A stretch of 64,000 nt of DNA, from positions 1 to 64,000 of the forward strand of contig NZ_MSCV01000023.1 in the NCBI RefSeq assembly GCF_002005105.1, read 5' to 3'. Under the pieces are notes generated by a model, which saw nothing but the letters and a program-made list of their open reading frames with translations, did no database searches and was not told the DNA's origin. A program made the translations under genes and the position numbers. This document shows, in pieces, positions 15,746 to 58,240 of this stretch; the stretch's first letter is position 1, and every line of letters begins with the position of its first letter. This DNA is from Methylocaldum sp. 14B. Its GTDB lineage: Bacteria; Pseudomonadota; Gammaproteobacteria; Methylococcales; Methylococcaceae.

Positions 15746-15845
15746 GCCCTTTTCGTTTTGTCGCGAACGCGAAGCCTGTCCCGACTGGAGCCAAGGGGCT
15801 TATCTCGGCCTATGTAGGATGCCCCTGTCCGTAAACTTCTCGATC

Positions 15846-16258
15846 GTAGGTCGGCAATCCATTGCCGACGAACACGCGCGGCCGGGACGTGGCGTCGGGA
15901 AGGGGGGCTTCGGCGCTCCAATCGCAAACGGTCATTCGGGTGCTCCAATCGCAAACGGCCTGGCCGGGAGCGCCGGCCAGCCCCTTCCCCGGATGACCGT
16001 TTGCGATTGGAAGGGATTCCCGACCTGCTTGGGGCGCAAGCTGGTAGGCCGGAATAAGCGTCAGCGTTTCCGGCAATCAACGGCGGGAAGGCCACCATGC
16101 CGGGAACACGGAGCCTGTCCCGAGGCAGTCGGGAAGATCGTAGGTCGGCAATCCATTGCCGACGAAGCTGTCGGGAAAGGATTCCCGACCTACCTCGGGC
16201 GCGAGCATGTAGGCCGAAACAAGCGCCAGCCTTTGTAGGCCGGCAATCCCTTGCCGGC
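15846..16258. repeat. Composite palindromic repeat array in the cox operon
   Basis: Contains four palindromes of the GTCGGCAAtccNTTGCCGAC family (15850, 16144, 16171 in the GGGAA form, 16237) and three copies of the 14-nt box CCGTTTGCGATTGG or its complement (15918-15931, 15945-15958, 15997-16010). Between the boxes is a stem (CTGGCCGG/CCGGCCAG). GGTCATTCGGG near 15930 pairs with CCCCGGATGACC near 15988. It fills most of the coxA-coxB gap. Confidence 0.85.
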
Positions 16259-21750: not shown

Positions 21751-21890
21751 GTCGGCAAGGGATTGCCGACCGACCACAGCTCGGGAGTAGGTCGGGAATC
21801 CCTTCCCGACGCACCGCTTCGTCGGCAACGGATTGCCGACCTACAACTGCCCGACGCACCGCCTCTTTGTCGGCAAGGGATTTGCCGACC
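21751..21890. repeat. Cluster of four REP-like palindromes
   Basis: Four GTCGGCAAnnnnTTGCCGAC-type palindromes (21751, 21791 in the GGGAA/TTCCC form, 21821, and 21869 with an extra T). They fill the gap between the flavoprotein and the fusion enzyme, on the 5' side of the latter. Confidence 0.85.
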
Positions 21891-29173: not shown

Positions 29174-29392
29174 AGTGTTGTAGGTCGGGAATCCCTTCCC
29201 GACGTTAACAACTTGCTAAGCGGGTTTGTCGGCAAGGGATTGCCGACCTACTATTAATCGCGCTACTTGAGCGTGGCGGCACTATAAACGCGCGGCGATA
29301 GTTTGTAGGTCGGGAATCCTTTCCCGACACAACGGTCGAGAAAGCGGCTACCATTTCCCGATCCACATCGCTAAACCCTGGTGAAAAACGCT
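29172..29392. repeat. MITE-like element carrying three REP palindromes
   Basis: Starts TAGAGTGTTGTAGG and ends GTGAAAAACGCTCTA, an imperfect inverted terminal pair resembling the ends of the 39165-39470 element. Inside are palindromes at about 29184 (GGGAA form), 29227 (GGCAA form) and 29309 (GGGAA form), and a partial repeated phrase (GCGTGGCGGCACTATAAACG) that recurs near 29455 (GGATGTGGCGGCACTATAAAT). The stop codon of the preceding gene lies at its left end. Confidence 0.7.
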
Positions 29393-31511: not shown

Positions 31512-31893
31512 ATGACGGATAAAACGGACATTTCTTTCTTTACATGCGAATAGGTGCGGCGCGCATTCCGGCGCGTCCAACGGCATTTCCAGGTTGATAA
31601 GAACGGCAAATACGGTGGGTTGTGCTAGGGTTATTTATCCGTAACTCAGTCAACGCTCCTGCTTTATCGTTCAAGTATCTCCGCCTCATGAGTCAAGACG
31701 CCCCTCAGGTCGAAAAACGTGCTCGTTTTACGTCCGGCTCAATTGGACGGAGATTCCGGCTACGGAACACACGGGAATAAATGGGCGCTACCTTTGGCGG
31801 ACATTCTTTAATGTTCTTGAATTCATACCGATTCGCGGAGGGCGCATAGCTCTTGGCGCGGTATGCCGAATGGATTGTTTCCATGCGGCGGAC
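31512..31893. other. Intergenic region upstream of the cassette region
   Basis: About 380 bases without a credible gene. The base composition falls toward the accessory region. No RNA gene, integrase or strong promoter recognised. Confidence 0.4.
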
Positions 31894-31967
31894 GGGTCGC
31901 GACTAAAGCGACCGTTTGCGATTGGAAGGGGGGCTTCGGCGCTCCCGAAGACGCCGTTTGCGACTGG
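31894..31967. repeat. Two-box hairpin repeat array
   Basis: GGTCGC-GACTAAA-GCGACC hairpin followed by the box CCGTTTGCGATTGG (31912-31925). Then a different hairpin (GGCTTCGG-CGCT-CCCGAAG) and a second, slightly diverged box CCGTTTGCGACTGG (31954-31967). Confidence 0.8.
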
Positions 31968-36000: not shown

Positions 36001-36286
36001 GTGGGCACGGCCTATCGGCCTTTGCCCACCCTACGACATTATCGCGGCTGTAGGGTGGGTTAGGCGCGCATCGCACCGAGTCTGGAAAGTTCCCAAGATG
36101 TTTCCGCGCGCCGTAACCCACCAGGCAAGGCAGCGGAACTATCGAAAGCCAGTTGAAGGTCGGCAATCCTGTGCCGACGAAATCGTCTGCCACGTGAGGC
36201 GGCAGAAGGCGTCGGGAAGGGATTCCCGACCTACTCCGGCGTGGTGCGTGCAAGCTTGGTAGGTCGGCAATCCCTTGCCGACAAAG
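36001..36286. repeat. Repeat cluster upstream of eutB
   Basis: Contains GGGTGGGTTAGG and CGTAACCCACC halves and three REP-like palindromes at about 36158 (GTCGGCAATCCTGTGCCGAC), 36211 (GGGAA form) and 36263 (GTCGGCAATCCCTTGCCGAC). It fills the ALDH-eutB gap, so any eutB promoter must be nested in repeats. Confidence 0.85.
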
Positions 36287-39065: not shown

Positions 39066-39164
39066 ATGACCCTCCTGTCCGAGTCTCGATAGTTGTCTAT
39101 GTTTCCGGAAATTCGACCGAAACCGTGCTACCGGCAATGTACCGGCGATGTCGACCGAAAGGCT

Positions 39165-39470
39165 AGAGCGTTTTTCATCCCGGTGTACGGCTTCGTGTCG
39201 GGCGGGAAGAACGTAGGTCGGCAATCCCTTGCCGACTTATCGGCTCGGCAAGGGATTTTGTTGGAAGGGGCGTCCTGGCGCTCCCAGGATGGCCGTTTGC
39301 GATTGGAAGGGTCATTCGGGCGCTCCCCGGATGACCGTTTGCGATTGGAAGGGTCGCGACTAAAGCGACCGTTTGCGATTGGAAGGGGCCGATTAAAGGC
39401 CCGTTTGCGATTGGGAAGGGATTGCCGACCTACTATCGGGCCCTCTGACACCGAATCGGAAAATGCTCTA
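39165..39470. repeat. MITE-like element containing a four-box hairpin array
   Basis: Outer ends TAGAGCGTTTTTCATCCCGG (39165 on) and CGAATCGGAAAATGCTCTA (to 39470) are imperfect inverted repeats. Inside: a GTCGGCAATCCCTTGCCGAC palindrome at 39219, then four copies of CCGTTTGCGATTGG (39293, 39335, 39369, 39401) whose spacers are hairpins with different stems, then GATTGCCGACCTAC closing the nest. It lies between divergent genes. Confidence 0.9.
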
Positions 39471-39584
39471 GCCGGATTCCGGCAAGCAGCGGATTGCGCA
39501 AGCCGTAAGGTATCCGTAGGATGAAAGGGACGCGCCCAAACGATCGAGACCTGAGAGAAACCGCCATGGAACTGGTCGAATTGT

Positions 39585-42640: not shown

Positions 42641-42710
42641 GTAGGTCGGGAATCCCTTCCCGACAAACGAGTTGGCGTGCAGATCCGTCGGCAAAGGATT
42701 GCCGACCTAC
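42641..42710. repeat. Two REP-like palindromes after the kinase gene
   Basis: GTCGGGAATCCCTTCCCGAC at 42645 and GTCGGCAAAGGATTGCCGAC at about 42688, preceded and followed by GTAGGTCGG/GACCTAC halves. Confidence 0.85.
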
Positions 42711-58095: not shown

Positions 58096-58240
58096 GTAGG
58101 TCGGCAATCCTTTCCCAATCGCAAACGGTCGCTTTTTGTCGCGACCCTTCCGAGAACGCCCCTCACCGATCCCGTGTGTCGGCAAAGGATTGCCGACCTA
58201 CGAATTTTCTCAATCGTCACCCCTAAACCGCGGTGAAAAA
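58096..58240. repeat. Repeat cluster with hairpin box, REP palindrome and MITE end
   Basis: A partial GTAGGTCGGCAATCC, then CCAATCGCAAACGG (58115-58128) with hairpin GGTCGC-TTTTTGTC-GCGACC, a REP palindrome at about 58180 (GTCGGCAAAGGATTGCCGAC), and a right-end sequence GTGAAAAACGCTCTA at about 58230. Confidence 0.85.

Follow-up and report, generated by a model that had tools for sequence, protein, structure and literature searches.

Apparently mobile miniature hairpins, REP-like and SDR-like, in the genome of Methylocaldum sp. 14B

Mobile-looking hairpins of a few tens of nucleotides that lie inside other repeats reportedly occur in Nostoc as SDR, the 'very small mobile repeated elements' of Elhai 2008. 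The REP, BIME and REPIN sequences that go with RAYT enzymes are described as short, high-copy palindromes with an unpaired conserved tag and compensatory stem changes, and a Y1 enzyme cuts the single-stranded REP (PMC3733652, PMC3116915, PMC8266576, PMC6006769). For Y1-type enzymes in general, PMC6006769 and PMC8266576 describe binding to hairpins and cleavage at a short target next to the left end, a similar tetranucleotide serving at the right end. In the account of PMC3116915 the doublet is the moving piece of a REPIN and singlets gave no excision; REPs lying in frame within tnpA-REP genes have also been reported (PMC6006769).

Here we describe an unusual family of miniature hairpins, real, extensive and apparently mobile, from a 64,000-nt stretch of Methylocaldum sp. 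14B (NZ_MSCV01000023.1, positions 1 to 64,000; hereafter the window) and from the genome around it. The units share with REPs the high-copy palindrome, the unpaired conserved tag and the compensatory stem changes. They differ in that they have no GTAG or CGTC tag, their conserved ends being AAGGG and CGTTTGCGATTGG, and in that they insert into REPs. Unlike the REPIN, whose moving piece is the doublet, single hairpin units are present or absent exactly and seem to be what moves. We found no published record of this unit in a literature search that covered few subscription journals.

Architecture and copy number of the unit

The sequence-only reading had singled out a constant box, CCGTTTGCGATTGG, separated by variable, self-complementary spacers. 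The box is indeed exact at 39293, 39335, 39369 and 39401 and recurs at the three further loci that it listed (15918-16010, 31912-31967 and 58115), but box plus spacer is not the repeating piece. Stepwise removal of the innermost units gives instead hairpin plus box as one unit, lying between GG and a purine, with the form AAGGG-stem-loop-stem-CGTTTGCGATTGG and a length of 42, 34 or 32 nt. The loops are fixed, as CGCTC or GA(C/T)TAAA. The hairpins proposed earlier are real, but their stems are longer than was given, up to 11 bp in the 42-nt units.

Four such units stand head to tail on the plus strand. The first, of 42 nt (39265-39306), has the stem GGGCGTCCTGG / CCAGGATGGCC with one G-G mismatch and one G-T pair, the loop CGCTC and the tail CGTTTGCGATTGG; the second, also of 42 nt (39307-39348), pairs GGTCATTCGGG with CCCGGATGACC around the same loop. 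A 34-nt unit (39349-39382) with the 6-bp stem GGTCGC / GCGACC and the loop GACTAAA follows, and then a 32-nt unit (39383-39414) with the 5-bp stem GGGCC / GGCCC and the loop GATTAAA. All four lie inside a GTAG REPIN (39213-39433, GTAGGTCGGCAATCC ... GGATTGCCGACCTAC), beside its right REP, and around this REPIN runs an outermost inverted repeat from 39161 to 39473 (arms 39161-39186 and 39448-39473, 77% complementary). That the array is not a CRISPR, as had been stated, holds: the pieces between its boxes are hairpins of 28, 20 and 18 nt that recur throughout the genome, not foreign sequence of near-constant length, and we rejected a CRISPR array on this ground.

The remaining window units are more varied in setting. 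Two abut on the plus strand, one of 34 nt that starts with ACGGG (31892-31925) and one of 42 nt with a one-mismatch box (31926-31967). A host hairpin (GGTCATTCGGGTGCTC ... CCGGATGACC) flanked by boxes at 15918-15931 (minus) and 15997-16010 (plus) carries in its loop an inverted, nested 42-nt unit on the minus strand (15945-15986); this unit belongs to a composite at 15785-16163 made up of a REPIN from 15846, box hairpins and a further repeat. A 35-nt loop variant with GACAAAAA lies on the minus strand at 58115-58149, inside a GTAG REPIN (58096-58201). Other GTAG REP- or REPIN-like matches (at most two mismatches) carry no exact box units; they lie at 16140-16193, 21760-21844, 29180-29251, 36155-36273 and 42641-42710.

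At three or fewer mismatches the window holds 14 boxes: nine exact, one with a single mismatch (31954) and four with two or three. Three of the boxes (15918, 15945 and 58115) read on the minus strand. Shuffled windows gave a mean of 9.87 at this threshold, and 12 of 100 shuffles reached at least 14; because the total is thus within chance, the four weak boxes are meaningless. The exact box, by comparison, occurs 295 times (161 forward, 134 reverse) in the 5.62-Mb genome (5,620,592 bases, 84 contigs), as against none for the reversed pattern. Our sample draws on 204 of these 295 places. The 200 outside the window form 93 clusters, each taken as one stretch; the four places listed within the window were set aside and four window loci were added to the stretches, giving 97 loci; the other 91 places are counted only where they fall inside these stretches. 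Together, the 93 stretches and the whole window contain 217 exact boxes. With slightly loosened parsing rules, 216 units were parsed in the 97 loci, and 208 of them are exactly 42 nt (120), 34 nt (56) or 32 nt (32) long, the other eight measuring 31-43 nt.

The box is found at least once in 14 of 61 genomes, this one included, and its own genus is the richest: 295 copies in the present genome (G000) and 23, 24 and 78 in the same-genus genomes G001, G002 and G003. Judged by eye and without reference to an origin, box orientation in G003 shows no clear replichore bias. An 18-letter junction was found in the own genome alone among 229 genomes of the class, a draw with two family members. When the species genome collection was scanned for a 19-letter tandem junction, a scan that may omit records near the window's own, 13 stretches matched, spread over four assemblies; these were metagenome-assembled genomes (MAGs) labelled Methyloversatilis, Burkholderiales and Bacteroidetes, and a Methylococcaceae bacterium. 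The first, DYIL01, is titled Methyloversatilis universalis (L124, L126, L127, L130, L131, L136) and appears to be the same-genus G002, which makes its label doubtful. The single Burkholderiales and Bacteroidetes matches have no unit hairpin and were taken as unrelated, as were six matches among viral contigs, which share one context and have no unit hairpin before the box. This spread of the box marks the host as a probable methanotroph of the Methylococcaceae.

Several loci carry variants of the basic form. The 32-nt variants of a 34-nt unit at L114, L115, L082 and L011 show a paired deletion in which both members of one G-C pair are gone (AAGGTCGC...GCGACGTTTGCG). Double-foot hairpins with a box on either side, for example CCAATCGCAAACGG-stem-loop-stem-CCGTTTGCGATTGG, occur at window 15918-16010 and at L075. 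Six loci (L026, L073, L104, L105, L110 and L117) show another repeat context, GTAGGATGTGCCGACGAAGG ... GGACGGCGTCCGCAGTAGG ... TGTGAGAAATGCGGGCTAG, with parts that vary by locus; it includes CTCTGTTTGC(A/G)ATTGG, a near-box end that lacks the unit hairpin, and is possibly a longer related element.

Stem variation and base pairing

When each unit was folded by itself as single-stranded DNA, those of the array gave z-scores of -2.3, -3.0, -2.1 and -1.6, and the units at 31892 and 31926 gave -1.1 and -1.5. In five of these six folds the AA of AAGGG pairs, beyond a G-G mismatch, with TT in the tail, so that the unpaired remainder is TGCGATTGG or TGCGACTGG.

The claim that stems change with pairing kept was examined in 88 distinct 42-nt units, taken from the own genome, G003, G002 and the Methylococcaceae genome, with three further single loci from relatives. 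In these units the columns of tag, loop and tail have a constancy of 82-100% (AAGGG 93-100% per column, CGTTTGCGATTGG 98-100%), as against 45-70% for the arm columns 6-12 and 22-28. The seven variable pairs are nonetheless standard in 86.2% of cases, compared with 56.4% after exchange of the 3' arms (maximum 63.5% in 2000 trials). Taking one unit for each of the 47 different 5' arms gives 86.3% against 53.8%, with a maximum of 64.4%. Where two units differ at exactly two stem sites, those sites are partners in 12 of 49 unit pairs, against 2.3 expected, in a tree-free count in which some members are shared.

Pairing thus stands far above the arm-exchange controls across the 97 loci and the relatives, and the claim is borne out for the 42-nt class. 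It is imperfect even there: all nine inner pairs are standard in just 29 of the 88 units, and the commonest combination at pair 8/26 is G-A (26 of 88). The 34-nt class (16 distinct units) and the 32-nt class (four of seven used) gave no covariation and a pairing that equals the best shuffles; because they vary so little, they neither support nor contradict kept pairing. The sampled stems do not vary at the expense of pairing, nor are the copies one degraded element, and simple decay, which the sequence-only reading had already rejected, does not describe them. The selected structure that it had suggested need not serve the host, because preservation through a mobility step explains the pairing equally well. 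At four loci (L033, L043, L044 and L085) a host hairpin combines arms of two stem families, such as TCGGTTCGA and CCCGGATGA, which suggests recombination between units.

Insertion sites, nests and empty sites

Across the own genome and G003, a purine follows the unit at 139 of 141 base sites. The GG on the left is not evidence in itself, because the parser demanded it; the right neighbour was free. By a simple motif rule, GTAG REPs account for 71 of these 141 sites, CGTC REPs for 14 and a third repeat for 7, with 49 elsewhere; the rule misses degenerate GTAG REPs, some of which sit among the 49. A perfect stem of at least 6 bp surrounds 38% of 139 base sites, compared with 7.3% of 4942 control GG|R points. 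Outside GTAG and CGTC REPs such a stem was found at 6 of 55 sites, near the control, so the preference for hairpins is shown solely through the known repeats.

Units also lie within one another. The own and G003 loci contain 39 nested units, 38 of them inverted at host position 18, which is the CGCT|C loop of a 42-nt host, and one in the same orientation at position 23. With five loci of the Methylococcaceae genome added there are 40, of which 39 are at position 18, in 24 distinct host-guest combinations (the exception included); they are not all independent, because composites seem to have been copied whole. When the guest is removed, the 40 rejoined host hairpins have 11 standard pairs out of 11 in three cases, 10 in twenty, 9 in eight, 8 in five and 7 in four, against a mean of 4.2 in random 42-mers.

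Two empty sites can be read to the letter. The first corresponds to the units at 31892-31925 and 31926-31967, both of which are absent in G003. There, CATACGGTGG runs directly into AATAATAAAGC, where the window has CATGCGGCGG, the two units (34 + 42 nt) and AATAAGGAAGC; the junctions are ..ACGGTGG|AATAA.. in G003 and ..GCGGCGG|two units|AATAAGG.. in the window. The second lies in a dnaE2-like gene (L044, G000:C5:127294-128350), in which three in-frame units, 126 nt in all, occupy the PHP domain (PF02811). The order is ..GAATTCCGATTGG, with its CGATTGG end, then the units, then AAGACGGG, and the frame stays open for 1064 codons despite the insert; its match to the error-prone DNA polymerase NF004225 (1.8e-58, 277 residues given) falls under the curated cut-off. 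The insert is absent in the seven relatives viewed, G015 among them, and G002 reads CGATTGG|AAAATGG at the site. Pieces of the gene matched in 11 of 25 genomes. They abut in G001, G002, G003, G004, G006 and G012, lie on different contigs in G009, and are represented by one piece alone in G007 and G044. At both empty sites GG stands on the left and GATTGG or GACTGG on the right, with no duplication beyond the GG: insertion is 3' of a short target, the right-end letters match it and the target is not duplicated. A GG-only target without further duplication fits the single-strand transposition described for IS200/IS605 (PMC6006769, PMC8266576).

The other window loci yield coarser comparisons. 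Stretches orthologous to the array in G001, G002 and G003 contain no box at two or fewer mismatches, the intergenic sequence being too diverged between genomes for an exact empty junction; a degenerate REP, which reads GTAGGTCAGCGATCC on the strand of G001, survives in that genome near this place. The composite at 15785-16163 is missing in G003 together with its REPIN, and the flanks abut there with a 3-nt overlap. At the 58115 locus, G002 has about 94 nt in place of the 557 nt between 57798 and 58356, and G001 about 117 nt in place of the similar stretch; G003 aligned on the left side alone.

Within the genome, one REPIN body occurs among the sampled loci in 15 copies (14 besides that of the array) that differ by whole units beside the same right REP, in the combinations 34; 35; 42; 42+34; 34+42+34; 42+42+34; 42+42+34+32, or similar. 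These loci also contain empty 72-nt REPINs of a sister body. The match between filled and empty forms is not always clean: after the unit, GAAGGG stands in many filled REPINs, but the empty GTCGGC type has CAAAGG or CAAGGG. The loops of CGTC REPs likewise occur empty (CCGGCA-GGGAA/GGGAG-TGCCGG) and filled. Movement of whole units is well supported.

Units are found in open frames more widely than in the dnaE2-like gene, the one genic locus for which we compared the empty form. In 136 loci, 19 unit-frame combinations have at least 80 open codons on either side, and many of these are chance open frames in GC-rich DNA. All units in the six loci examined are of the 42-nt class, which keeps the frame because 42 nt is 14 codons. 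The unit-bearing frame of L109 has no family match, and at L069 the units have a TrbC-like part on one side and a TraW-like part on the other, which may be the junction of two genes. In the Methylococcaceae genome, the unit frame at L135 is Hsp70-related with DUF3731, L125 encodes a TPR protein with the unit possibly before its start, and at L132 the unit lies upstream of a KdpF-like part, perhaps in non-coding sequence.

Candidate enzymes, rival explanations and known systems

Taken together, we think it somewhat probable that the units are a non-autonomous, REP-like miniature mobile element of 32-42 nt that moves as single-stranded DNA. A Y1/HUH enzyme, IS200/IS605- or RAYT-like, would act in trans on the single-stranded units, reading the shape of the hairpin, the loop and the tail but not the stem sequence. 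It would cut after GG at both ends and join the unit into GG|R sites, often in REP hairpins. Head-to-tail arrays would arise by repeated insertion behind a unit's own terminal GG, since the right end GATTGG recreates the left half, GG, of the site; inverted insertion into the CGCTC loop of another unit would produce the nests. Stems could stay paired either because unpaired copies would be immobile or because one arm may be re-copied from the other.

Y1 transposases (PF01797) are present in 37 of 41 genomes, with 7 matches in the own genome and 31 in G003. Among the loci read, which comprise six own loci and the C21 RAYT, 19 in G003 and one in G001, no Y1 gene is clearly associated with units. 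Exact boxes in a CGTC REP precede the own C4 gene by 130-190 nt, and both this gene and the C31 gene adjoin other GTAG repeats; the C7 gene has a one-mismatch near-box 489 nt downstream that lacks the unit hairpin. In G003, one gene (L205) has a box 93 nt upstream, and another (L199, C1:2015500-2017300) is preceded at 108 nt by a near-box with one mismatch, which belongs to a CGTC REP and is not part of the left end common to copies of the insertion sequence. At this last locus a CGTC REP holds a degenerate unit, and an IS200-type copy has inserted immediately next to that unit. On the upstream side, five G003 copies of one IS200 type have a different left end in common, TAACTCGATTAGG. We rejected the IS200-type genes of G003 as an autonomous partner, as none of the 19 Y1 loci has unit ends around the gene.

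The RAYT genes bear on the best-surviving alternative, which is that the units do not insert on their own and are carried as cargo by the REPIN RAYT (C21:80133), with recombination reshuffling them. Open RAYT genes in the own genome (L228, G000:C21:80133-80678) and in G003 (L206, G003:C1:3794383-3794928) are 90% identical, and each is flanked on both sides by GTAGGTCGG REPIN arrays about 86 nt apart, that is, by arrays of the REPIN that hosts the units. The link to a RAYT that had been proposed from the window is therefore upheld as far as the presence of the gene and its REPIN flanks goes, but among the Y1 genes read none is clearly associated with the units themselves, and the C21 gene has one degenerate box about 1.2 kb downstream and no intact flanking units. 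Transport as cargo would also accord with the 71 of 141 base insertion points in GTAG REPs and with the box counts, the two genomes with an open gene having 295 and 78 boxes, G001, where it is broken by two stops, 23, and G002, with only a 42% relative and no close copy, 24; this comparison, however, rests on four genomes, too few to carry it. We consider cargo transport unlikely, given that one REPIN body bears differing combinations of units and that some exact-ended units have no GTAG REPIN around them, namely those at 31892, within the dnaE2-like gene and in the loops of CGTC REPs.

More doubtful is an account that needs no transposase, in which template switching or fold-back repair synthesis at replicating hairpins copies one arm from the other. 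It would explain the coordinated two-sided stem changes (12 of 49 against 2.3 expected), the chimeric hosts and the lack of a clearly unit-associated transposase among those read, but it would require neither constant ends (AAGGG, GATTGG) nor a purine after the site, nor the GG that precedes the site wherever the empty state is known, also outside repeats. Site-specific recombination at a GG core is highly improbable; an example would be a circular unit on which an IS110-type recombinase acts in trans. GG does stand at both unit ends and once in the empty site, and IS elements are described as targeting REPs (PMC1525189), but the targets share little beyond GG|R. To our knowledge, moreover, IS110-type recombinases need no conserved hairpin with free stem letters. 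Least likely of all is an RNA element useful to the host, such as a transcript-end hairpin, with copies kept by selection: the array hairpins do fold better than shuffles and just 19 unit-frame combinations in 136 loci are in open frames, but Rfam gave no match at gathering score across the window or the locus, and the insertion in the dnaE2-like gene and the presence or absence in sister species resemble mobile DNA.

Within the single-strand reading that we prefer, a stronger form can be put forward only tentatively, namely that the units are a separate class of miniature transposon. A single 32-42-nt hairpin would then be the whole mover and would build arrays and nests itself; it would be recognised by shape, loop and a 9-13-nt tail, with the stem letters free, would use GG|R sites and would depend on a single-strand enzyme other than that of the REPINs. 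For a very small mobile piece of DNA we now provide the exact ends, empty sites read to the nucleotide and a record of covariation, which make it directly testable whether a single REP-like hairpin moves alone. The units further suggest a mode of recognition in which stem sequence is nearly free, and in one case they lie in frame within a gene that resembles error-prone DNA polymerase genes.

Set beside other described repeats, the units differ from Nostoc SDR in organism and presumably in their ends; they are likened to SDR by description, not letter by letter. With the pneumococcal BOX element (boxA-boxB(n)-boxC) they share a variable number of inner modules and mutual insertion, but BOX is described with terminal inverted repeats and target duplications (PMC3049150), whereas the units also occur alone, like the two at 31892-31967 that stand without flanking modules, and leave no duplication beyond GG. 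The RPE of Rickettsia are likewise palindromic and in frame within genes, but measure about 150 bp (PMC10969869) against 42 nt for the unit, and few of the sampled units are genic. Mitochondrial double-hairpin and repetitive hairpin-forming elements also look mobile and also occur in tandem; in the sponge mitochondrial elements described in PMC2800124 the stems are conserved and the loops vary, an arrangement that the units reverse.
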